64,000 bases of DNA. It comes from a virus. The position numbers were made by a program, and so were the translations under genes. The notes under the pieces are model-generated. The model was not told where the DNA came from. It saw only the letters and a list, made by a program, of their open reading frames with translations, and did no database searches. The DNA lies in the IMG/VR virus record IMGVR_UViG_3300032278_002257, positions 1 to 64,000 of that record. One strand, 5' to 3'. Positions 2,043-63,645 of the stretch are shown here, one piece after another (positions within the stretch are counted from its first letter, which is position 1; every line of letters begins with the position of its first letter).

Positions 2043-2560
2043 CCTACCACCAAATAATAATTATGTTTACCTTTTATTTCAGTTTTATAATGAATTGTTG
2101 TTAATTGATTTTGATCTATAATTTGTTGACAACTATTTATCGGATTAATACAAGATAGATGTGGATTATCAGAACCAACTAAAACAAACTTTCCTGAGAA
2201 CTTTCTACCAACAGGATAACATGTTTCACAATATTTATTTACAATTATACCGTCTTCTATTTTAACATCATCAAATATGACATCTTTATTAATAACATTC
2301 TTTGTTATTAATTTATTAATTTTGCATACCATAGGATCTATATCATAATAATAGCACTTATAACCGAATAATTCAAAATCATCCACTTCTATATGACAGA
2401 ACCAACTACATAAAAAATGTACGGGCTCTTCTTCATAATGTATCATGATTTCGTCAAATACTCGCCATGATATTTTTTGAACATCTTTATTATTAGAATA
2501 TTCAATTAAATATTTAAATTTTTTATGTTTTGTTTTTAATAAAGTTTCATAAGATGACAT
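2027..2560 (-). CDS. Methyltransferase-like hypothetical protein
   Basis: The start chosen is the ATG at 2560 (protein begins MSSYETLL), because a GGGAAAG ribosome-binding-like stretch precedes it and the longer reading from 2602 would overlap the upstream gene by over 50 bases. The roughly 177-residue product has a strand with acidic end, CYYYDIDPMVCKINKLI, like the SAM-ribose binding strand of class I methyltransferases, and a later GKFVLVGSDNPHLSC segment. No canonical GxGxG motif is obvious, so it may be a degenerate or partner subunit of the adjacent methyltransferase-like protein, with which it overlaps by 16 bases. Confidence 0.45.
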   Translation of the reverse strand: MSSYETLLKTKHKKFKYLIEYSNNKDVQKISWRVFDEIMIHYEEEPVHFLCSWFCHIEVDDFELFGYKCYYYDIDPMVCKINKLITKNVINKDVIFDDVKIEDGIIVNKYCETCYPVGRKFSGKFVLVGSDNPHLSCINPINSCQQIIDQNQLTTIHYKTEIKGKHNYYLVVGCNQL

Positions 2561-3299
2561 TATAACTTTCCCATAATTCTTTTGCCCATCCTTGTGCATC
2601 ATGCAATTCTACATGTTGTTCATGTTCTTTTGCCCATGCTTTATGTGAAGTATTGAATAGACATATTTTATAACGTTTTTTATATTCTTTTGGAGTCATA
2701 TCATTTGGAAATTTTGCACCTATATTGTAATTATAGGCAGTGGTTGGAGGCCAGAAATCTACCATTTTTTTGCGATGACATTGATAAAATATGAGTTTAT
2801 CGAAAGATGGATATGAAAAGAATGCTTCCTTTTTTGTTTTTAATAAATTTTCATACATTTCATATCCAGCATCATTATCCCAAGCAACAAATGAAGAATT
2901 TATAGGAGTTGTTAAATATCCATAATTTAATTTTGAGGCCAATGAATCTCTCCAATAATTCCAAATAAATTTTGGTTTTGGATGATTTTTGTGTATGTAT
3001 TTTGTTATGTTATTTTGAATCAATATATCTAAATCAAACCATGCCTTTTTACCTGACATGTTAGCATAATCTCCAAAATAACACATTTTTTCTGAAGTGA
3101 AAATTTGAGTTCTTGGAAATTCATCGAATGTTGTAGGAATTGGTTTTATTTCAATATCTTTATTTAATCCTTTAGAATTTTCTGTTAAACAATGAAAATT
3201 AAAAGAATTATTATAGTGTATTTTTAAAGAATTGAATAATCGATTCACATATTTTGGAGGATATTTATTTCCCCACTTCAAACAAAAAAAATTAGTCAT
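2547..3299 (-). CDS. Glycosyltransferase-like protein (GT-A type)
   Basis: This 250-residue protein is the first gene of the minus-strand block. It has an N-terminal strand FFCLKWGNKYPPKYVNRL, a DxD-type site AWFDLDILIQNNI (about residues 85-97), an acceptor-side segment NSSFVAWDND and a C-terminal FNTSHKAW. This layout is the same as in the glycosyltransferase-like gene at the other end of the block, so the two are probably distant paralogues that add sugars in one pathway. It diverges from the radical SAM operon; the 40-base gap holds a late-type promoter facing the plus strand. Donor and acceptor are unknown. Confidence 0.65.
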   Translation of the reverse strand: MTNFFCLKWGNKYPPKYVNRLFNSLKIHYNNSFNFHCLTENSKGLNKDIEIKPIPTTFDEFPRTQIFTSEKMCYFGDYANMSGKKAWFDLDILIQNNITKYIHKNHPKPKFIWNYWRDSLASKLNYGYLTTPINSSFVAWDNDAGYEMYENLLKTKKEAFFSYPSFDKLIFYQCHRKKMVDFWPPTTAYNYNIGAKFPNDMTPKEYKKRYKICLFNTSHKAWAKEHEQHVELHDAQGWAKELWESYNVIL

Positions 3300-20237: not shown

Positions 20238-20859
20238 ATTATTTAATACTCTAACAGCATATGGGGATCAAGTTAAATTAAACATATATCAAAATTCGAA
20301 GACTATGTTAGAAAGATTAATCCAATTTGATGATAATTGGACAAAATATAATCCTAGAAAACATATAAATCGTTGGGGATTGAGTGTAACTAATTTAGAC
20401 GGCAATTTAGGACCTGGGCCTGATTTAGATAGTTTATATGAGTATAATAAAGAAAATAATACAAATATAACTGAATCTGATTTTATTGTACCAACACCTG
20501 TTTATGATGTATTAAAATTATATTGTGATCCTTTTAAAGAATGGTTATTTAGATCTCATATTTTAAAATTAAAACCAGGCGGATTTTTTCCAAGTCATGT
20601 AGATAATATGGGATCTACAATAGATAGTTTTAGATTAATTGTCCCTTTACTAGTATGTAATCCGTTAGATGGGGGATATTTTATATATCAATATGATAAT
20701 GTATTACATTGGAATTATGGTAGTTTATATTTTTTAAATACTTGTAAACGGCATACAATATTTAATGCCAATGATGAGGATGATCATATTGTATTAATAA
20801 TGAATATTAAATTAACAGAAGAATCTGTGTCAACAGTAACAAATCTAATAGAACCATGA
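20227..20859 (+). CDS. 2OG-Fe(II) oxygenase-like protein
   Basis: The start taken is the ATG at 20227 (MSFELFN), giving 210 residues and an 11-base overlap with the radical SAM gene, instead of a longer reading from 20191. The metal site reads H114-V-D116 after the turn LKPGGFFP, with distal H166 in CKRHTIFNANDEDDH. This is the Asp/Asn hydroxylase-like arrangement also seen at 8029. It probably hydroxylates an intermediate of the radical SAM pathway. The following QueC-like gene overlaps by 4 bases. Confidence 0.7.
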   Translation: MSFELFNTLTAYGDQVKLNIYQNSKTMLERLIQFDDNWTKYNPRKHINRWGLSVTNLDGNLGPGPDLDSLYEYNKENNTNITESDFIVPTPVYDVLKLYCDPFKEWLFRSHILKLKPGGFFPSHVDNMGSTIDSFRLIVPLLVCNPLDGGYFIYQYDNVLHWNYGSLYFLNTCKRHTIFNANDEDDHIVLIMNIKLTEESVSTVTNLIEP

Positions 20860-21500
20860 ATTTAATTAAAAAAGAATTAAATTTATCCGGAGTCAATTTA
20901 AAAATATATGAAGGTCCTATAGGTATAAGTTGTAGCGGCGGAGCTGATAGTTCTTTGCTTTTATACTTTTTAATGAAATATTCTAATGATAAAATCTATA
21001 TTTTATCTACTGGAAATAAAGCAAGACAATTTAAAAATGTTACAACAACTAATAATGTTATTCAAAAATGTATCGAATTAACCGGAAATATAAACATAGA
21101 ACATCATAGTACATTTTGTGACCATCAAACATTAAGTAATATATTTGATAAATTAGATTATTATAGAAAAAATAAATTAATAAATATTTTCTATACAGGA
21201 ATTACTGCTAATCCACCAAAATCTATTACTGATACATTTATAGAAGAAGTTACAGAAGTAGACAGAAATCCTACTATTATGAAAGACGTTTTACGTAATA
21301 ATAATAAAGCATATACACCCTGGATTAATATAGATAAAAAGAAACTAGCCCAAATATATAAAGAATATAATTTAATAGATAGTTTATTTGTATATACTAG
21401 ATCATGTGAATGGGAAGCACAAAATGTTAAAGACCCAAAATTAGGACATTGTGGTATATGTTGGTGGTGTCAGGAAAGAGCATGGGGATTTTCAATATAA
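20856..21500 (+). CDS. QueC-like PP-loop ATP pyrophosphatase
   Basis: The 214-residue protein carries an N-type PP-loop SGGADS at residues 27-32, which binds ATP for adenylation of a carboxyl or carbonyl oxygen. Its C-terminus is Cys-rich (SCEW then CGICWWC and RAWGF), matching the Zn-binding tail of QueC, the 7-cyano-7-deazaguanine synthase. No QueD, QueE or QueF partner genes were identified here, so a role in deazaguanine DNA modification is possible but not supported by context. An amide- or nitrile-forming step in the surrounding pathway is the alternative. It overlaps the next gene by 19 bases. Confidence 0.7.
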   Translation: MNLIKKELNLSGVNLKIYEGPIGISCSGGADSSLLLYFLMKYSNDKIYILSTGNKARQFKNVTTTNNVIQKCIELTGNINIEHHSTFCDHQTLSNIFDKLDYYRKNKLINIFYTGITANPPKSITDTFIEEVTEVDRNPTIMKDVLRNNNKAYTPWINIDKKKLAQIYKEYNLIDSLFVYTRSCEWEAQNVKDPKLGHCGICWWCQERAWGFSI

Positions 21501-28153: not shown

Positions 28154-29599
28154 ATGTTTGAATTGTTGATGTGGACTATATTGGGTTCACTTTATGGATT
28201 ATTTATAGGCATAATTCCCGTTTCAGGGCCCACCAAAGCATTAATAATGCTGTTTAGTGTTGTAAATCATTTTTCACATATACCATATGAATTTGTCGCC
28301 TTTTCTATGGCAGCGGTTGTTGCGTGTACAATAGGAGATAGTTTTTCAGGAGTTTATATTGGAATTCCCGGATCTAATTCTTCTGCGGCGACAATGGTTG
28401 ATGGATTCCCACTCACCAAAGCAGGACAAAGTTCTTACGCAATTAGTTTAGCATTAACCACTAGTGGTATACAAGGTATTATTTGGTTTGTTCCATTTCT
28501 TATTGTTCTTCCATTATATGAATATATTTTACAATATATGAAAGTTCCTGAGATGTGGGTTATTATATTGTTTAGTTTTTTGAGTGTAAGTTTACTATCA
28601 AGTAATAAACCATTAAAAGGTATTTTAGCAGTAATTATAGGTGTTGGTTTAGGATCAATTGGTTCTGATGTTACAGGAAATCCAAGATTTACATTTGGAA
28701 TGGAATATTATCTTTATGACGGTATAGGTATTGCAGTATTGGCATCAGGATTATTTTGTATTCCAGAATTATATACATTGTGTAAATTTGATATGAAATC
28801 TGTTAAAGAAAATAGTGACTTTAAACAAATAAAAAAAGGTATAATTGATGCAATACGTTTATGGAAACATGGTTTTGTTGGGGGATTAATTGGGTTTTTC
28901 TATGGACTATTGCCGGGATATGGTGGTGGCGGTTCAGAATGGATTTCTTATAGTATAGCGACAAAAATGAAAAGGGTATTTTCAACTCCATTTGGTAAGG
29001 GCGCGCCAGAAGGTATAGTCGCACCAGAAGGAGTTAATAATGCCGGCAAGGCAGGAGCATTAATACCCACTATTCTCATAGGTATTCCTGGTGCAACATG
29101 GGCAATGATCGCGATGGGATTATGGGAATATATTGGATTTCCTATGGGAGATTTATATATATTAGAGGATAAAAATTTTATAAATTCTATAATAATTGGT
29201 TATCTAGTCGGCACTATTTCAGTTACAATTTTTGGATTATTATTAGCCGGGCCGATATCTAAAATATTTCGTATCAATAAATATTTTTTCATAGCATTTG
29301 TTGCACTTGTTACATGGTGGGCAATAATAAGTTCAAATTTTTATGAATTTATTTTAGAAGATTCAATATTTTTTATTGTGTTTTCATTTTGTGGGTTTAT
29401 ACTGAAGCATTTTAAAATTAGCAGGCCAGCGGTATTGTTGGGATTTATTTTGAGTGAAAGATTAGAACAATTTTCATATCAATTGATAGATTTGTATAGT
29501 TTTCAAGAAATAATTATAAGACCATTCGTTATTATAATAATGTTGTTATCAATATTGATGGTCATTTTTAGTAAAAAAGTAAAGGTGGATTATGTTTAA
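28154..29599 (+). CDS. TctA-family tripartite tricarboxylate transporter permease
   Basis: The 481-residue, very hydrophobic protein has about ten to twelve membrane segments. Family signatures are clear: the first glycine-rich region GLFIGIIPVSGPTKAL, VYIGIPGSNSSAATMVDGFPLTKAGQ, and in the second half GAPEGIVAPEGVNNAGKAGALIPTILIGIPGATWA, which is the duplicated TctA signature. It should import a carboxylate with a TctC-type binding protein; one is encoded by the next gene (8-base overlap). The small TctB subunit is not seen. Transport permeases of this kind are rare in phages. Confidence 0.85.
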   Translation: MFELLMWTILGSLYGLFIGIIPVSGPTKALIMLFSVVNHFSHIPYEFVAFSMAAVVACTIGDSFSGVYIGIPGSNSSAATMVDGFPLTKAGQSSYAISLALTTSGIQGIIWFVPFLIVLPLYEYILQYMKVPEMWVIILFSFLSVSLLSSNKPLKGILAVIIGVGLGSIGSDVTGNPRFTFGMEYYLYDGIGIAVLASGLFCIPELYTLCKFDMKSVKENSDFKQIKKGIIDAIRLWKHGFVGGLIGFFYGLLPGYGGGGSEWISYSIATKMKRVFSTPFGKGAPEGIVAPEGVNNAGKAGALIPTILIGIPGATWAMIAMGLWEYIGFPMGDLYILEDKNFINSIIIGYLVGTISVTIFGLLLAGPISKIFRINKYFFIAFVALVTWWAIISSNFYEFILEDSIFFIVFSFCGFILKHFKISRPAVLLGFILSERLEQFSYQLIDLYSFQEIIIRPFVIIIMLLSILMVIFSKKVKVDYV

Positions 29600-30707
29600 A
29601 TTTATTCAATTAGTATTATGTATGTTGTTTGTTTTTGGTACAATGGTTATGGTCAGCCAGGTTAATGCTGATACAATGTACGCAGTTATTCCTAGTTCAC
29701 CAAAGCCAGGAGGAACCTCGAGATGGGCATGGCTTTGGGGTAAACATATGAATAATAATTTATCAGGTAATATTGAACAAATAGATTTTAAATATATCCC
29801 AGGAAATAGAGGAAAAAATGCTCTAAGAAAATTTGAAAGTAAATTGAAATACGGTAATTATATGATGACTAGTCATGGTGGAAATGCTATGGCAACATTA
29901 TTAGAAGATGTTGGAAATTATGATTTTAGAAAATATAAACCAATATTAATTCATCCTGGTAATATGCTTATTCCCAAAAGGATAGATTATAATCCAAAAT
30001 TCCATAAACAAAAATTCGCACTTAATCCTGGGGGTGGATCAGAACCAGACCATTTCGCGGCGGGACTAATGGTGTGTCCAGAGACTAATGATATGGATAA
30101 ATTTATGAAATGTTTTAAAGATAGAGTAATTATTGTTAAAGGTATGAAAAGTGGAGGAGCGCGGATTGTAGCATTTGTAAATGGAGAATTGAATGTAAGT
30201 AGAGACACCTTTCAGAATTATACAGGTAATGCAAAATATAAAAAAGCATTATCTAACAATGAACTTGAAATATGGTTTCATCATTGTCAAATGAATTATA
30301 AAACAGGTCAATGGGTAGATGATCCAAATCCTGAACTTAAAGGATTATGTTTCGATTATATATTTGAACAAACTCATGGATTTAAACCCAAAGGAGAGGT
30401 TTATGATGCATATGTTTTATTGAGATTGTGGAGAGATGGTATTCAAAAAAGTTTTTTTGTGACTACGGATAGTGTATATTATCATGATATGGTAACAATT
30501 GCAACAAAAACGTGGTTCGATGAGGAATTTCAAAAAGAAAGATTAAAAAAATTAGGAAATTATGGGGTATTTATTGGACAAGACTCTGAGTTTATTATAA
30601 AAAGAATGTATGAAGCGGTAAATGAATCAACATTAAAAAATGCAGTAAGATTTGTTAATGAAGGATTAGGTTATAAAGCAGTAGTTAAACACATTCATTC
30701 TCCTTAA
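29592..30707 (+). CDS. TctC-like periplasmic solute-binding protein
   Basis: The 371-residue protein begins with a Sec signal peptide (about 1-26, hydrophobic LVLCMLFVFGTMVMV then VNADT). The mature start AVIPSSPKPGGTSRWAW, followed by FKYIPGNRGKNAL and MMTSHGGNAMATLL, is the TctC layout (GG loop, PGxxG loop, substrate loop). It has diverged and carries an insertion with extra cysteines (VCPETND, KCFKD, FHHCQMN) in the middle. It partners with the TctA-like permease. The 3' end overlaps the minus-strand methyltransferase by 23 bases. Confidence 0.75.
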   Translation: MFKFIQLVLCMLFVFGTMVMVSQVNADTMYAVIPSSPKPGGTSRWAWLWGKHMNNNLSGNIEQIDFKYIPGNRGKNALRKFESKLKYGNYMMTSHGGNAMATLLEDVGNYDFRKYKPILIHPGNMLIPKRIDYNPKFHKQKFALNPGGGSEPDHFAAGLMVCPETNDMDKFMKCFKDRVIIVKGMKSGGARIVAFVNGELNVSRDTFQNYTGNAKYKKALSNNELEIWFHHCQMNYKTGQWVDDPNPELKGLCFDYIFEQTHGFKPKGEVYDAYVLLRLWRDGIQKSFFVTTDSVYYHDMVTIATKTWFDEEFQKERLKKLGNYGVFIGQDSEFIIKRMYEAVNESTLKNAVRFVNEGLGYKAVVKHIHSP

Positions 30708-35612: not shown

Positions 35613-36083
35613 ATGGCTGAAAAAGAAAAAATTGTTGCAAATGGAAAAGATCAAAAAATACTACAACATGATATTGAAGAAATAGATAAAAAAGTAGATG
35701 AAGTTCAACAAATGGAACTTTCTGCTAAAGACCAAATAGTTGCGAGTAAATCATTTATCTATGTTATTATTGCACTTCTTATATACTTAACCTTTTTGGT
35801 TATTCCAGATATAGAAGAAAAAGTTACATGGATGGAAAAGGATCTCAACTCTGTATTAGTTCAATCTGAACGATTCAAGAAATCAACCAGAGTATTTGCA
35901 AAGGATAATCAATGTGCATCGTGCCACTTGAGTCCAGATTATCTTCTTCATAATCTCTTAATGAAATATCCAAGTTTTTCTGACATTAAAGCATTCATGT
36001 CGGTTGGCCACCAGAGATATTATACTATGACCGCCCCGATCGCAGATGAAGAATTGTTAGAAGTATATCGGGCATTGCAATGA
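35613..36083 (+). CDS. Membrane-anchored protein with c-type haem motif
   Basis: The 156-residue protein has a charged, coiled-coil-like N-terminus, one membrane segment at about 47-65 (SFIYVIIALLIYLTFLVIP) and an outer domain of about 90 residues with one CxxCH motif (C101-A-S-C104-H105). The C-terminal helix (DEELLEVYRALQ) is typical of small cytochrome c domains, and a Met in TMTAPI could be the sixth ligand. The host's Ccm machinery could attach haem if the domain faces the periplasm. Its stop overlaps the AapJ-like gene (ATGA). A phage-encoded cytochrome-like protein is unusual. Confidence 0.65.
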   Translation: MAEKEKIVANGKDQKILQHDIEEIDKKVDEVQQMELSAKDQIVASKSFIYVIIALLIYLTFLVIPDIEEKVTWMEKDLNSVLVQSERFKKSTRVFAKDNQCASCHLSPDYLLHNLLMKYPSFSDIKAFMSVGHQRYYTMTAPIADEELLEVYRALQ

Positions 36084-37195
36084 TAATGGTAGGTAAACTT
36101 GTTGTATCTTTAATTTGGGTATTTTGGATGATGGCATTGTCTCCTGCTGAGGGCCAAGATCCAATGAAAGAAAAACTTGGAGTTGGTGCACCAAAATCAG
36201 AATATGTTCCAACGTATAATTCAACATTTGAACGAGTGAAGAAAAGAGGATATGTCATTTGTGGAACCAATGATGAGTTTCCCGGCTTCTCTCAGGAAAT
36301 ATGGAATAATGAAGATGGTGATAGGTGGGAAGGTTTTGATGTTGATATATGTCGTGCAGTTGCAGCTGCAATATTCGGTGATGCAGATGCAATCGAATTT
36401 ACTATAGTCAATGGTAAGACCCGATTTGAATTCTTAATAGATGGTTCTATAGATATTCTTTCTGCTGCAACCACATTTACTTATACAAGGAATGTTGCAA
36501 AGAAACTAGAATTCCTACCTACAACCTATTACGATGGTCAAGGATTCATTGTAAGAAAAACTCTTGGAGTATCTTCTGCAAAACAGATGGAAGGTGCAAG
36601 GATATGTTTTAGTGGTAGTGGAACAGCTGCAAAGAACATTGCAGACTTTTTTGAGTTACATGGAATAAACTATATCCCTGTCGCAGTACCCCCTAACGAA
36701 AAAACAAAGAACGTATACAAAAGGGGTGACTGTGATATGTATGGTACGGATAGGTCTGGTCTTGCATCGAATAGATTAAGTTTTGATGACCCTGCCCGTC
36801 ACATGATACTTCCAGAGATTATCTCAAAGGAACCATTGGGGCCAGTTGTCAAGTATGGAGATCAGAAATGGACAGACATAGTTCGATGGACAGTATATGT
36901 TTTGTTTATTGCAGAAGAGATGGGCATTAATTCAAAGAACATTGACTTGTTCAAGAATCACATAGACCCAAACATTCAAAGATTTATGGGTGAAAAAAAT
37001 GGAAAAGATCATCCCCATCTTGGAGCTAAACTTGGACTAGAGGCATCTTGGTCATATAACGTTATTAAATTGATTGGAAATTACAAAGAAATATATGAAC
37101 GTAATGTGGGGCCGGATACACCTATAGGATTAGAACGTGGTCTGAATAAATTATACAATCATGGAGGATTATTATATGCCCCACCATTGAAATAG
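36080..37195 (+). CDS. AapJ-like amino-acid ABC transporter substrate-binding protein
   Basis: The 371-residue protein starts with a signal peptide (about 1-25, LVVSLIWVFWMMALSPAEGQ). The mature part matches the AapJ/general L-amino-acid binding family: RGYVICGTNDEFPGFS, WEGFDVDICRAVAAAIFGDADAI, TRFEFLIDGSIDILSAATTFTYTRN and a YYDGQGF strand. In the host such proteins deliver amino acids to an AapQMP permease. No permease is encoded here, so it probably plugs into a host transporter or binds a ligand for another purpose. A tight operon with the haem-motif protein and the PycTM-like protein is visible. Confidence 0.85.
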   Translation: MIMVGKLVVSLIWVFWMMALSPAEGQDPMKEKLGVGAPKSEYVPTYNSTFERVKKRGYVICGTNDEFPGFSQEIWNNEDGDRWEGFDVDICRAVAAAIFGDADAIEFTIVNGKTRFEFLIDGSIDILSAATTFTYTRNVAKKLEFLPTTYYDGQGFIVRKTLGVSSAKQMEGARICFSGSGTAAKNIADFFELHGINYIPVAVPPNEKTKNVYKRGDCDMYGTDRSGLASNRLSFDDPARHMILPEIISKEPLGPVVKYGDQKWTDIVRWTVYVLFIAEEMGINSKNIDLFKNHIDPNIQRFMGEKNGKDHPHLGAKLGLEASWSYNVIKLIGNYKEIYERNVGPDTPIGLERGLNKLYNHGGLLYAPPLK

Positions 37196-37204
37196 GGGCA
37201 TGAT

Positions 37205-37885
37205 GTGGAAAAAGAAGAAATTAATCAATTTTCAAAAGTACCTGAAGATCGTACTGCAGTAGATAATATTCTCCGCCTCAATCACGGTAATCAAATGAGA
37301 TTGGGGTTGATGGCAGATGCAAAAGCTAATATAATGATTACTGTTGCATCTATTGTATTTTCTATAACGATAGCAAACCTGGACAATGAGGTGATGAAAT
37401 GGCCTCTACTAACATTTGCAACGGGCAGTTTCTTCTCATTATTGTTTGCGATATTTGCTATTATACCAAAGACGGATTATCCAAAAGACAGACATGGAGA
37501 TATAGACAGATCATCTCCGCATTTTAATCCTTTATTTTTTGGTCATTTTGCTCATATAGATATTGAAGAATATAAAGAAGATTACGCAGAAAAATTGATG
37601 ACAGATGATATCGTATATGATGCACTTGCGGGAGACATATACGGACAAGGAAAAGTTCTTGCTCTCAGTAAATACAAATTTCTCAAGTGGTCATACATGA
37701 GTTTCCTTTGGGGAATGGTGGGAGCAGTTTTAGTATTCTTATTACGAGGGCCGGTTGGAGAATTTATCTATCCGTACCTAATAAGAGGGCTTGATGCATT
37801 TATTGATGAAATGCTGTTCTTGTTGGAAGGAATGAAACATTTGGCGTGTCAAGGAACAATACAATGTAGGAATGGTGGGAATTAA
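37205..37885 (+). CDS. PycTM-like (Pycsar effector-type) membrane protein
   Basis: The 226-residue protein starts at a GTG. It has the layout of the Pycsar effector transmembrane family (PycTM, DUF5706-type): a helical N-terminus ending in LMADAKANIM (residues 35-44) running into TM1 (about 43-59), TM2 (66-87), a cytoplasmic middle with NPLFFGHFAHIDIEEY and DIYGQGKVLALSKYKFL, and TM3 (162-180). In bacteria these are cyclic-pyrimidine-activated effectors that damage the membrane. No nucleotide cyclase is visible nearby. The role in the phage could be superinfection exclusion, a dominant-negative decoy or lysis. The family call is from memory of the motif set. Confidence 0.65.
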   Translation: MEKEEINQFSKVPEDRTAVDNILRLNHGNQMRLGLMADAKANIMITVASIVFSITIANLDNEVMKWPLLTFATGSFFSLLFAIFAIIPKTDYPKDRHGDIDRSSPHFNPLFFGHFAHIDIEEYKEDYAEKLMTDDIVYDALAGDIYGQGKVLALSKYKFLKWSYMSFLWGMVGAVLVFLLRGPVGEFIYPYLIRGLDAFIDEMLFLLEGMKHLACQGTIQCRNGGN

Positions 37886-37966: not shown

Positions 37967-38575
37967 ATGAAAACATTTAAGAATCATTTAGTAGAATCTA
38001 GTTTATCGAGAGTTATGCATCATGTGAATAAAACTCCTAAGTTTGGTTTAATATCACCACATAGGCAGGAACATTCACCTGAAGAGAATGAAAAACGCTT
38101 TTCTGATTTAAAAAATCATGTTCGAAAACTTGGACATGGATATATTGAAATGAGAGGTGGTTATAAAGAAGAGGGAGGATTTGTTAAAGAAAAATCTCTT
38201 CTTATTCCTAATATTGAAAGAAAACACATGATGGGTTTAGGAAAAAAATATGATCAACATTCAGTAATCCACAAAGAGAAAGATGATTTTTCACTTTTAG
38301 GAACAAATACTTCTCCAGGAAATTCTCATGGTAAAGTTCATGCAAATTTTAATCATGGGGGCAAAAGTATTTCTGTTGATAATAGAGGAAACCAATTTCA
38401 AGATTTATTCTCAAAATTACATAAAGGCTCACACAGAGATAAAAAGTTTCTATTAAAAATGAAAGAGGAATCTTTTGTTATGGAAGAAAAATTAGAAACA
38501 AGCATGTATTATAATAAATTACATGGTGAACAATGGCTTACAATCTTTGAAGGAAAGCCGAATGAAGCAATTTAA
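37967..38575 (+). CDS. DUF3293-like protein with capsid-targeting-like N-terminus
   Basis: The 202-residue protein begins MKTFKNHLVESS, very close in form to T4 capsid-targeting sequences (MKTYQEF then IAEA), with LVE as a gp21-type cleavage triplet. The following part, FGLISPHRQEHSPEENEKRFSDL then GHGYIEMRGGY and EKSLLIP, resembles the DUF3293 pattern (N-x-R region plus E-x-S strand). The function is unknown. If the targeting sequence is genuine, the protein would be packaged in the head and injected. It is preceded by a strong sigma70-type promoter and overlaps the kinase/phosphatase gene. Confidence 0.55.
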   Translation: MKTFKNHLVESSLSRVMHHVNKTPKFGLISPHRQEHSPEENEKRFSDLKNHVRKLGHGYIEMRGGYKEEGGFVKEKSLLIPNIERKHMMGLGKKYDQHSVIHKEKDDFSLLGTNTSPGNSHGKVHANFNHGGKSISVDNRGNQFQDLFSKLHKGSHRDKKFLLKMKEESFVMEEKLETSMYYNKLHGEQWLTIFEGKPNEAI

Positions 38576-39758
38576 TGAATTCTTAATTGAAGGAATGTAT
38601 GATCCTTCAATTTTTAAAGCAGTTTTCATGGCAGGAGGTCCTGGTTCTGGAAAGTCGTGGGTTGCCGGTCATTCAACAGCTGGACTAGGAATGAAGATTG
38701 TGAATTCAGATGAAATATATGAATTAAAATTAACATCTTCTGGATTGGGAACAGACTTCACGAAATATACAGAAAAGGATTTCGAGAAATCTCAAGTGAT
38801 TAGAGATAAGGCAAAATCCCTTACAAAAATGAGAATGAAACAATGGATGGACGGAAGATTAGGTTTAATTGTAGATGGCACAGGCCATAAATTTGACAGA
38901 CTTCAATCAGCATCAGAAGGATTGCGGGGGTTGGGTTATGATACAATGATGATATTTGTTAATACATCATTAGATGTCGCTTTAAAAAGAAATAGTCGAA
39001 GACCTAGAAAATTAAGAGATGACATAGTAAAAAAGAGTTGGGAAAATGTTCAGTCAAATATAGGAAAATTTCAAGAATATTTTGGTGCTGATAAATTTAT
39101 AATTGTTGATAATAATACTGAAACTGAAGCACGTGATCCATTTAGAAGTGTTTATAAAATATTAAAAAAAATAATACAGAAACCTGTAGAAAATTATAAA
39201 GCTAAAAAATGGATTGAAAGGGAAAAGAAATTAAAAAAATCTCAAACTTTTAAAGAATATTTTGAATTAGATGAATTTGATAATCCTCAAATTTATTGTG
39301 ATATGGATGGAGTTGTAGCGGATTTTGATGCGGGAGTTAAGGAAATGATTGGTGGAAAGTTTAAAGATGAGCGTTGGGAGGAATTACCAGACGATTTTTT
39401 CTATAAATTACCACCAATGAAAGATGCGAAACGACTTTGGAATTTTATTGGTAAACTCAATCCCTTTATGCTTACAGCAATACCAACACATAAAAGGGGA
39501 AAAATCGCTGATAGGGCGGGAGCTGATAAGACAAAATGGATGCTAAAACATTTTAATGTTGAAAAAAATAGTATGAGAGCAGTTTCAAGACGTGATAAAA
39601 AACAATTTGCTAAAGATGGTAGAGATAGAAGACCCAATATTCTGATTGATGATCATGAACAAAATATTGCAGAATTTAGAAAAGCGGGAGGAATAGGAAT
39701 ACATCATACCAGTGCAGCAAATACAATTAAACAACTTAAAGCGATAGGATTCAAATAA
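38562..39758 (+). CDS. P-loop kinase/HAD phosphatase fusion (polynucleotide kinase-phosphatase-like)
   Basis: The start used is the ATG at 38562 (MKQFNEFLIEGM), giving 398 residues. The N-terminus again resembles a capsid-targeting peptide ending in LIE-G. Then comes a P-loop kinase domain (FMAGGPGSGKSW; SDEIYEL; LIVDGTG; RRPRKLRDDIV), followed by a HAD phosphatase domain (IYCDMDGVVADFDAG; ILIDDHEQNI). The domain order is that of T4 PseT (kinase then phosphatase). It may repair 5'/3' ends of cleaved RNA or DNA. A second TFKEYFELDE segment at the domain junction looks like a leftover targeting peptide. It overlaps gp44-like order nowhere; the next gene starts at its stop. Confidence 0.75.
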   Translation: MKQFNEFLIEGMYDPSIFKAVFMAGGPGSGKSWVAGHSTAGLGMKIVNSDEIYELKLTSSGLGTDFTKYTEKDFEKSQVIRDKAKSLTKMRMKQWMDGRLGLIVDGTGHKFDRLQSASEGLRGLGYDTMMIFVNTSLDVALKRNSRRPRKLRDDIVKKSWENVQSNIGKFQEYFGADKFIIVDNNTETEARDPFRSVYKILKKIIQKPVENYKAKKWIEREKKLKKSQTFKEYFELDEFDNPQIYCDMDGVVADFDAGVKEMIGGKFKDERWEELPDDFFYKLPPMKDAKRLWNFIGKLNPFMLTAIPTHKRGKIADRAGADKTKWMLKHFNVEKNSMRAVSRRDKKQFAKDGRDRRPNILIDDHEQNIAEFRKAGGIGIHHTSAANTIKQLKAIGFK

Positions 39759-61673: not shown

Positions 61674-61863
61674 ATTAAAATTCTCTTTAGAAAATAACTG
61701 GAAATGGATGGCTAAAGATGAAGACGGGTCTGTTACAGTTTTTAATAAAAAACCAAATTTAATAGATGGGGTTTGGGATAGTTTAGGAGAGTTTAAAGTT
61801 CTCACTCATCCCAATTCAGGATCACTGTTAGCTAATTGGGAAGATTCACTCATACCAATTTAG
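61639..61863 (+). CDS. Small hypothetical protein
   Basis: The 74-residue protein reads MENLQEENKIIELKFSLENNW then KWMAKDEDGSVTVFNKKP and FKVLTHPNSGSLLANWEDS. It looks like one small beta domain with no recognised motif. Its TAG stop supplies the first G of the tRNA that follows. AGGTCAAATGG precedes the start. Confidence 0.5.
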   Translation: MENLQEENKIIELKFSLENNWKWMAKDEDGSVTVFNKKPNLIDGVWDSLGEFKVLTHPNSGSLLANWEDSLIPI

Positions 61864-61938
61864 GGGCTGTAGCTCAACTGGGAGAGCGCATCCCTTGCAC
61901 GGATGAGGTAGCAGGTTCGATCCCTGTCAGCTCCACCA
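61863..61938 (+). tRNA. tRNA-Ala (anticodon TGC)
   Basis: A 76-base cloverleaf: acceptor GGGGCTG pairs with CAGCTCC, D-stem GCTC to GAGC, anticodon loop CTTGCAC (TGC), T-arm with GGTTCGATCC, and an encoded CCA end. The G3-T70 pair, the main identity element of tRNA-Ala, is present. The first base is shared with the stop codon of the preceding gene. It reads GCA and, by wobble, other Ala codons, which are frequent in the virion genes. Confidence 0.95.
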
Positions 61939-61944
61939 TATATT

Positions 61945-62730
61945 ATGTTATTAAAACAATTACACAAAATAACTGCATCTGAATTTGTCGCAGATAGACA
62001 TTATTCTGCAGTAATGCCAAGACTTACAAAATATTTTCTTGGATGTTTTGTTGAAGAAGAATTAGTAGGTGTGATCACATTTGGTTGGGGCACAAGACCA
62101 AAACATACAATTCAAGCATTATTTCCAGAATTGAACACAAAAGATTATTATGAAATTGGTAAAATGTGTATGGATGATTCTATGCCTAAAAATAGTGAAT
62201 CACAAATGTTGTCAATGGCAGTTAAGTGGTTAAGAGAAAATACAGATATCAAATATCTTTTTACATGGGCAGATGGAATCGTAGGTAAGCCAGGATATGT
62301 GTATCAGGCTGCAAACTTTCTGTATGGTGGATTTTCTATAACAGATACCTATGTTACTGAAACTGGCGAGAAAGTACATCCAAGAACTCTACAAGGAATT
62401 CTACCAAATAAAGAAGGTTTGAAGTATGGTCATAGACCCAATTTTGAACAATTGAGGGATTTGAAATTGAGTAGAGTTAAAGGAAAGCAATTCAGATACA
62501 TTTATCCTATGACTAAGAAAGATAGAAAATATTTGAAAAAATCAACAGTTGTGTGGGGATTGAATCATCCTAAACATACAGATTTGGAATGGACAGTAAA
62601 ACTTCCTGGTGAAACAAAATATGCAAAGACTCAAACAATGCCATTTGATTTAACAAAAGAATTAGAATATAATAAGAAAAATATAGCTAAATATAGAAGC
62701 GAATCAAATTTAAATAAATTTTTTAAATGA
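61945..62730 (+). CDS. Mom-like DNA-modification protein (GNAT-type)
   Basis: The 261-residue protein resembles the Mom family: an early HYS (ADRHYSAVM), a FLGCFVEEELVGVITFGWG hairpin, then YEIGKMCMDDSMPKNSESQMLSMAVKWL, LFTWADGIVGKPGYVYQAANFLYGG. These match the family's L-x-R-x-x-V-x-x-x-x-P-x-N-x-x-S and aD...G-x-x-YQAxNF patterns. Phage Mu Mom modifies adenine to protect DNA from restriction. The C-terminal 80 residues are basic and could bind DNA. It follows the tRNA by 6 bases. Confidence 0.65.
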   Translation: MLLKQLHKITASEFVADRHYSAVMPRLTKYFLGCFVEEELVGVITFGWGTRPKHTIQALFPELNTKDYYEIGKMCMDDSMPKNSESQMLSMAVKWLRENTDIKYLFTWADGIVGKPGYVYQAANFLYGGFSITDTYVTETGEKVHPRTLQGILPNKEGLKYGHRPNFEQLRDLKLSRVKGKQFRYIYPMTKKDRKYLKKSTVVWGLNHPKHTDLEWTVKLPGETKYAKTQTMPFDLTKELEYNKKNIAKYRSESNLNKFFK

Positions 62731-63203
62731 TGCATGATGTAAAAGAATATATCTTAAAGTGGATAGAAGAATTTGTTAGCGTTAATAATAGTGGATTAAA
62801 TAACTGGCCACCTTGTCCATATGCTAGACAGGCTGTGATTGATAATAAAATTGTATGGTGTGAATTTGATACGAATTTGTTGGACAATTTGTGTTCATTA
62901 GAATGGGATAATAATTATGATTTGTGTATTATACATACACCAAATGTTACTAGTGATTATTTGAGTGAACAAGTTAAGCTTGCAAATTCTTTTTTAATGC
63001 CGAAAGACATTGTTTGTCTGGAAGACCATCCTGATGATATTGAAGAAATAAATGGGGTTGTAATGAACAATGGCAAATACCCTTTAGTTTTTAAGCAAAA
63101 ATTAAGTAACATACAAATGTTTAGTGAGAGTTTAAAACGTAAAGGATATTATGATGTTTGGAGTGAACAAAATCTAGAAGATGTAGTTAATTGGCGTCAA
63201 TAG
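62727..63203 (+). CDS. Hypothetical protein with PPCPYA motif
   Basis: The 158-residue protein is conserved-looking but not assigned. It has NNWPPCPYARQAVI near residue 27, a segment I recall from hypothetical proteins of marine phages and some bacteria, then alpha/beta segments YDLCIIHTPN and KDIVCLEDHPDD. No catalytic motif is evident. It overlaps the Mom-like gene by 4 bases and converges with the minus-strand GNAT-like gene (17-base overlap). Confidence 0.55.
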   Translation: MMHDVKEYILKWIEEFVSVNNSGLNNWPPCPYARQAVIDNKIVWCEFDTNLLDNLCSLEWDNNYDLCIIHTPNVTSDYLSEQVKLANSFLMPKDIVCLEDHPDDIEEINGVVMNNGKYPLVFKQKLSNIQMFSESLKRKGYYDVWSEQNLEDVVNWRQ

Positions 63204-63645
63204 GACCTAATGCTTCAAATCCATCTATTCGATGTTTGTATGTATCATCTTCGCCCAAGTAAAGATATTCATATCCTTTTGATTTATAAAATGCACATTC
63301 ATGTTTGAGACTTTTAATACCTAAACTTAATTTTGGATTTTCATAGTTCCATGCAAATTGATTACATTCAACATTTTTATTATTAAGCATGTATAGATAT
63401 GAAAAGGCAACCAAATTGGTATTATCAAAGTATCCTATTATTTGTACATGATCATGTAACAATTCTTCCGCAAAAAGGGGCATGACACTTTTAAAGTTTT
63501 TATATTTACAGTAGGTATTGTATATCTCTAAGATTTGATTTGTTGGAACGGGATTTAAGATTTGTGCGGATTCATATAATGAATAATTAGTTTTACTTAA
63601 ATTAATCCTACAAAAATAATAATCGATTTTTTGACGAAAGTACAT
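63187..63645 (-). CDS. GNAT/aminoacyl-transferase-like protein
   Basis: The 152-residue protein has the pattern of the acyl-transferase part of arginyl/leucyl-tRNA-protein transferases and related GNATs: VQIIGYFDNTNLVAFSYL, then FAWNYENPKLSLGIKSLKHECAFYKSKGYEYLYLGEDDTYKHR. The acetyl-CoA loop is not canonical. It could modify protein N-termini or small molecules. It is the only minus-strand gene in this part and its upstream region is very AT-rich. Confidence 0.5.
   Translation of the reverse strand: MYFRQKIDYYFCRINLSKTNYSLYESAQILNPVPTNQILEIYNTYCKYKNFKSVMPLFAEELLHDHVQIIGYFDNTNLVAFSYLYMLNNKNVECNQFAWNYENPKLSLGIKSLKHECAFYKSKGYEYLYLGEDDTYKHRIDGFEALGPIDAN

Follow-up and report, generated by a model that had tools for sequence, protein, structure and literature searches.

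The open reading frame at positions 61945–62730 (plus strand, ATG start, 261 amino acids) encodes a protein that almost certainly belongs to the Mom family of DNA adenine modification enzymes; we designated it MomA. Judging from its sequence, MomA is likely to be a true Mom enzyme acting on DNA adenine. The window, i.e., the whole stretch of DNA analyzed, comprises the first 64 kb of a virus record of 88,952 bases, which is possibly incomplete. A Mom protein is in itself ordinary; this phage type encodes at least three divergent Mom paralogues (A, B, and C). The mom genes often lie near a glycosyltransferase gene; thus, a composite modification of an unusual kind may be present in the phage DNA.

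Identity, conservation, and phylogeny of MomA

MomA matched the Pfam family Mom (PF25680) with 179 bits and an E-value of 1.2e-52, the curated cut-off of this family being 27.1 bits. In the PHROG database, it matched phrog_1384, “Mom-like DNA modification protein” (E-value 9e-42). The solved enzyme of phage Mu, “Methylcarbamoylase mom” (PDB 8bv8), was retrieved in the single-protein search with an E-value of 2.7e-17, and 8bv8 matched the family profile with an E-value of 3.2e-60. These matches are far beyond chance and bear out the Mom-like protein that the original prediction had placed in this frame. Pfam, PHROG, 8bv8, and the phylogenetic tree all led to Mom and not to another GNAT family, the latter being the outcome that the prediction itself had named as speaking against it. 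The identity of MomA to Mu Mom, the sole characterized enzyme, was approximately 29%. The best 80 of 171 viral contigs encoded relatives with 68–100% identity, and the closest homologue from an isolate was encoded by OM43 phage Melnitz (54.5% full-length identity).

In an alignment of 26 diverse Mom proteins, ranging from Mu to distant marine clades and including five divergent Mom clades, residues H19, Y20, G33, E70, S86, G117, Y120, and Y185 (MomA numbering) were invariant, and D110 was kept in 24 of the proteins. MomA possesses every residue that is invariant from Mu across the five divergent clades. The two stretches proposed earlier as a Mom signature, KNSESQMLSMA (MomA residues 82–92) and YQAANFLYGG (residues 120–129), hold the invariant S86 and Y120, respectively. 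Residues H19, Y20, E70, S86, D110, and Y120 of MomA correspond to H48, Y49, E98, S114, D139, and Y149 of Mu Mom in the 231-residue numbering. Several of the latter are presumably needed for Mu Mom activity, and we take H48, Y49, S114, D139, and Y149 to be catalytic. The position of Mu Arg101 is occupied by Lys73 in MomA and in the MomA clade; across the 26 proteins, arginine was found at this position in 20 and lysine in 6. Arginine was thus not counted as a defining residue, because it is not invariant in the family.

The median dN/dS was about 0.10 in the MomA set (297 pairs among the closest 26 sequences), indicating purifying selection, and 0.10 in the set of a second Mom protein of the phage, MomB; therefore, both genes are maintained. 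In the phylogenetic tree, the MomA clade included the Mom proteins of Mu, JD024, Psychrobacter Y8A, Edwardsiella, and Melnitz with a support of 96/98, while MomB, MomC, MomD1/D2, and MomE fell into other clades. The deeper branching order of this tree is unsure because of long branches. The separate positions of the paralogues point to old duplications or separate acquisitions and not to recent copies.

Genomic context of the mom genes

The assignment of the DNA to a T4-like phage was confirmed: gp46, gp45, gp44, gp62, RegA, gp43, UvsX, and a gp41-like helicase were readable in the translations, and RegA was also matched by Pfam. Its relatives suggest that the phage is probably marine.

A gene of tRNA-Ala (tgc), detected by ARAGORN at positions 61863–61938 of the plus strand, ends 6 bases before the start codon of momA. 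It is probably an insertion-site neighbour, outside the enzyme system. In some relatives, momA was located within tRNA arrays, with which it seems to travel in some phages, but in most of them no adjacent tRNA was present: over all momA loci, the upstream tRNA was Ala in 7, Asn in 1, Thr in 1, and absent in 69, and the downstream tRNA was Gly in 3, Thr in 3, and absent in 73. One contig (L017) contained two momA-like regions, 2–787 and 2477–3259, with tRNA-Gly (tcc) immediately behind each of them and more tRNAs after it; in the assembly, two open reading frames represent the second momA. From this pair, tRNA-Gly was considered as the source of glycine for Mom; the idea was rejected because the adjacent tRNA is mostly absent and varies in kind over the momA loci. 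Downstream, a gene of 158 amino acids (62727–63203, phrog_28122), whose start overlaps the stop codon of momA, was also present in close relatives. Near momA, the minus strand (63187–63645) encoded a short protein matching the C-terminal domain of arginyl-tRNA-protein transferase with 21.6 bits, against a cut-off of 25.

A second mom gene, momB (positions 76566–77285, plus strand; Pfam Mom, 145.5 bits), was found in the same record beyond the window, before gp43. MomB was 28% identical to MomA over 147 residues. A contig of 79 kb encoded MomA, MomB, and a glycosyltransferase 100% identical to those of the window phage; it also encoded a third Mom, MomC, located past the end of the window phage's record, with two methyltransferase-like and two glycosyltransferase genes behind it.

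The glycosyltransferase gene linked to Mom lies in the replication module at positions 73097–74482 of the record (plus strand), beyond the window. We failed to match its product with any Pfam family, and tblastn against 50,697 phage records gave no match for its family. In Foldseek, the model predicted for the protein (pLDDT 82.5) matched GT-B enzymes with an E-value of 2.9e-14 and a probability of 1.0; a GT-B fold is thus predicted for this protein. In the same model, the last 70 residues possibly follow the order of helices and strands of a winged helix, as read by eye. The original prediction had used glycosyltransferases of this genome as a cue for modified DNA; in a changed form, an association of Mom with a glycosyltransferase is supported for the enzyme just described, but the glycosyltransferase-like genes at the left end of the window are not near Mom.

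Directly upstream of this gene, also beyond the window, a DruA-like gene (positions 71937–73100, plus strand) matched Pfam DruA partially, with 39.9 bits at a cut-off of 27. Its predicted model resembled GNAT-type acyl-CoA enzymes; however, no significant match was found among solved structures (PDB), and the comparison of its profile with the Mom profile in hhalign was not significant (probability 1.7%, E-value 0.03). A sequence-level relationship of the DruA-like protein to Mom was therefore rejected. One cyanophage copy was labelled “methylcarbamoylase mom” by its depositors, which the profile and fold tests did not confirm. An obligate partnership with Mom was rejected as well: the T4-like phages HTVC008M, Mosig, and S-SCSM2R have the DruA-like gene and no Mom, while Melnitz has Mom and no DruA-like gene. 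Since it occurs in T4-like phages lacking Mom, the DruA-like gene is a looser associate of Mom than the glycosyltransferase.

In the window phage, momA stands apart: the DruA-like gene and the glycosyltransferase gene are located approximately 10 kb away, between gp44 and gp62. In its relatives, an overlapping operon gp44-momA-druA-GT-momC-momE was found within the replication module. At loci L021, L023, L024, and L027, the order was momA-druA-GT-momC with frames overlapping or abutting, except for a gap of 4 bases in L027; a further mom gene, momE, followed momC in L023, L024, and L027, and gp44 directly preceded momA wherever the contig extended that far. At loci L043, L044, L051, L057, L065, L066, and L068, momA and the start of gp43 overlapped, and the DruA-like gene followed downstream. 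Thus, the position of momA shifts between close relatives.

Other T4-like contigs formed a second lineage, in which two tandem mom genes were followed by a glycosyltransferase gene, gp43, and a DruA-like gene. The glycosyltransferase here mostly belonged to a second type, which shared 31% identity with the first. This second glycosyltransferase as the sole query gave 19 loci with at least 5.3 kb of upstream sequence, and two mom genes were present at 18 of them; at the remaining locus, the mom pair was found approximately 14 kb away on the same contig. With the polymerase of this lineage as a Mom-free control anchor, 79 loci were obtained: 42 with both glycosyltransferase and Mom, 11 with glycosyltransferase alone, 7 with Mom alone, and 19 with neither. 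The association was significant in Fisher's test over the 79 loci (p = 1e-5), with p = 0.10 for the 46 longest; these values overstate independence because the loci are related. When the polymerase of the window phage was used as the anchor (79 loci), Mom was found in the flanks of 3 loci and the glycosyltransferase at 2, both with Mom; the mom/glycosyltransferase module is therefore patchy among these loci.

Proposed function and alternative readings

We infer the following activity, site specificity, and donor for MomA, together with a sugar transfer to DNA and an anti-restriction role. MomA would most likely act during or soon after replication of the phage DNA, transferring a small group, probably derived from CoA, to N6 of adenine in short sequence contexts; the product of Mu Mom is N6-methylcarbamoyl/carbamoylmethyl adenine. 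Host restriction nucleases would then be unable to cut the modified DNA. The paralogues A, B, and C would probably differ in target context or in the group added, jointly widening the protection. In many relatives, the mom set is located in the replication module together with the genes of the DruA-like protein, a predicted GNAT protein, and of the GT-B glycosyltransferase; the latter enzyme may attach a sugar either to that base or to a different one.

MomA could instead be a Mom-fold GNAT that has moved from DNA to another substrate, such as tRNA, a protein, or a small molecule. Its distance from Mu Mom (approximately 29% identity), the lysine in place of arginine at position 73, and the placement of momA within or next to tRNA genes that was seen in several relatives would agree with such a shift. 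MomA nevertheless keeps all residues invariant in the family, branches with Mu Mom and not apart from it, and in many relatives its gene is inserted among DNA replication genes; moreover, tRNA genes are missing from the vicinity of most momA loci, and the adjoining tRNA varies. We consider a substrate other than DNA quite unlikely. A different kind of DNA modification, 7-deazaguanine bases, would follow from the QueC-like protein that the original prediction had cited as a sign of modified DNA. The open reading frame 20856–21500 indeed matched Pfam QueC, although weakly (27.1 bits at a cut-off of 22); it is located approximately 40 kb from momA, clustered with genes of radical SAM/SPASM, AMP-binding, and dioxygenase proteins. 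The record and the overlapping contig G001, both of which may be incomplete, yielded neither a PTPS/QueD nor a TGT/DpdA homologue, while the same searches were positive in 9 of 14 and 14 of 14 control genomes, respectively. This argument for modified DNA did not hold, and the 7-deazaguanine reading is largely refuted and very improbable.

For the module as a whole, a single pathway might be formed by the Mom paralogues together with the GT-B enzyme, and perhaps also the DruA-like protein, leading to N6-substituted and then glycosylated adenine in the DNA of widespread marine T4-like phages. We regard this as rather unlikely; to our knowledge, such a composite base in DNA has no prior description. 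A serious possibility, falling only somewhat short of probable, is that the mom genes modify DNA while the glycosyltransferase and the DruA-like gene are unrelated passengers of a variable region, for example, surface-sugar or exclusion genes; the linked glycosyltransferase could then target cell-surface sugars or proteins. Glycosyltransferases are common in phages, replication modules of T4-like phages have insertion hotspots, and DruA-like genes occur without Mom; the linkage is not independent, since the loci examined are related, and the association at the longest loci is weak (p = 0.10). On the other hand, both glycosyltransferase lineages, at only 31% identity to each other, occur with mom genes, 18 of the 19 glycosyltransferase loci carry two of them, and the frames abut or overlap in L021, L023, L024, and L027, which argues against the passenger reading. 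A sugar acceptor made by a hydroxymethylase was also considered: thymidylate synthase/hydroxymethylase (PF00303) was absent from 7 of the 8 records tested, including that of the window phage, and present in one, a contig of 252 kb; a handle of this origin was rejected.

Comparison with known systems and other genes of the window

Phage Mu Mom (8bv8) belongs to the same family as MomA by Pfam, sequence match, and tree, and shares all of the invariant residues; unlike the Mu-like phages, the window phage is of the lytic T4-like type and has several paralogues. In Mu, the operon includes the translational activator Com; no match to Com (PF10122) was found in the record or contig G001, nor in any control genome. 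In T4, hydroxymethylcytosine is glucosylated: the base is first given a handle, to which a GT-B enzyme adds a sugar. In the window phage, the handle would come from the action of Mom on adenine, with the sugar added in a presumed second step, and no member of PF00303 was found in its record, as described above. The DruA-like gene exceeds the Pfam cut-off for the Druantia protein DruA (DUF4338), but the match is weak and partial, and the gene belongs to a phage replication module and occurs also in cyanophages and pelagiphages.

Multiple Mom genes per phage have already been published for jumbo phages; PA5oct was reported to have five (PMC7824862). Mom domains of such phages are described there as typically fused to nuclease domains, whereas Mom of the window phage type is stand-alone and linked to glycosyltransferase and replication genes. 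In Melnitz (MZ577095–MZ577098), also a T4-like marine phage, Mom belongs to the MomA clade; in contrast to the window phage type, this phage has a single mom gene, in a different neighbourhood, and lacks the DruA-like gene. Its mom gene is annotated as DUF465 or hypothetical and seems to have been unrecognized so far; the Melnitz paper covers a DNA methylase, and among the terms searched in its text no other DNA modification enzyme came up (PMC9004378). Our search of the literature on Mom in marine phages returned nothing specific.

These data extend Mom from Mu-like to marine T4-like phages, with divergent Mom sets linked to replication genes as well as to a glycosyltransferase family without a match in the phage records searched. 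DNA modified in the predicted way would be resistant to restriction digestion and to some enzymatic methods of library preparation, with consequences for the sampling of such phages. The core prediction can be tested directly in the cultured relative Melnitz, which grows on OM43 strain H5P1.

Several other genes of the window were noted. The region 3340–27656, which includes the QueC-like PP-loop protein, encoded at least seven radical SAM/SPASM proteins (one of 1412 amino acids), two AMP-binding proteins, and dioxygenases of TauD and Asp/Arg hydroxylase types; it looks like a biosynthetic pathway. At positions 28154–30707, the gene of a TctA permease (267.6 bits), a component of the tripartite tricarboxylate transporter, was followed by a gene without a Pfam match that resembles TctC, the partner binding the substrate; the pair represents a phage-encoded uptake transporter. 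A family 3 extracellular solute-binding protein (36080–37195, 45 bits) adjoined a gene (35613–36083) whose product, a small membrane protein, contains a CASCH haem-binding-like motif. A Pfam PycTM (Pycsar effector) domain was found at positions 37205–37885 (71.3 bits); a membrane domain resembling an anti-phage effector was unexpected in a phage genome. The gene at positions 38523–39758 probably encodes a T4-like polynucleotide kinase-phosphatase; its product has a kinase domain of the zeta-toxin/AAA_33 type and weakly matched an NT5C phosphatase-like domain.
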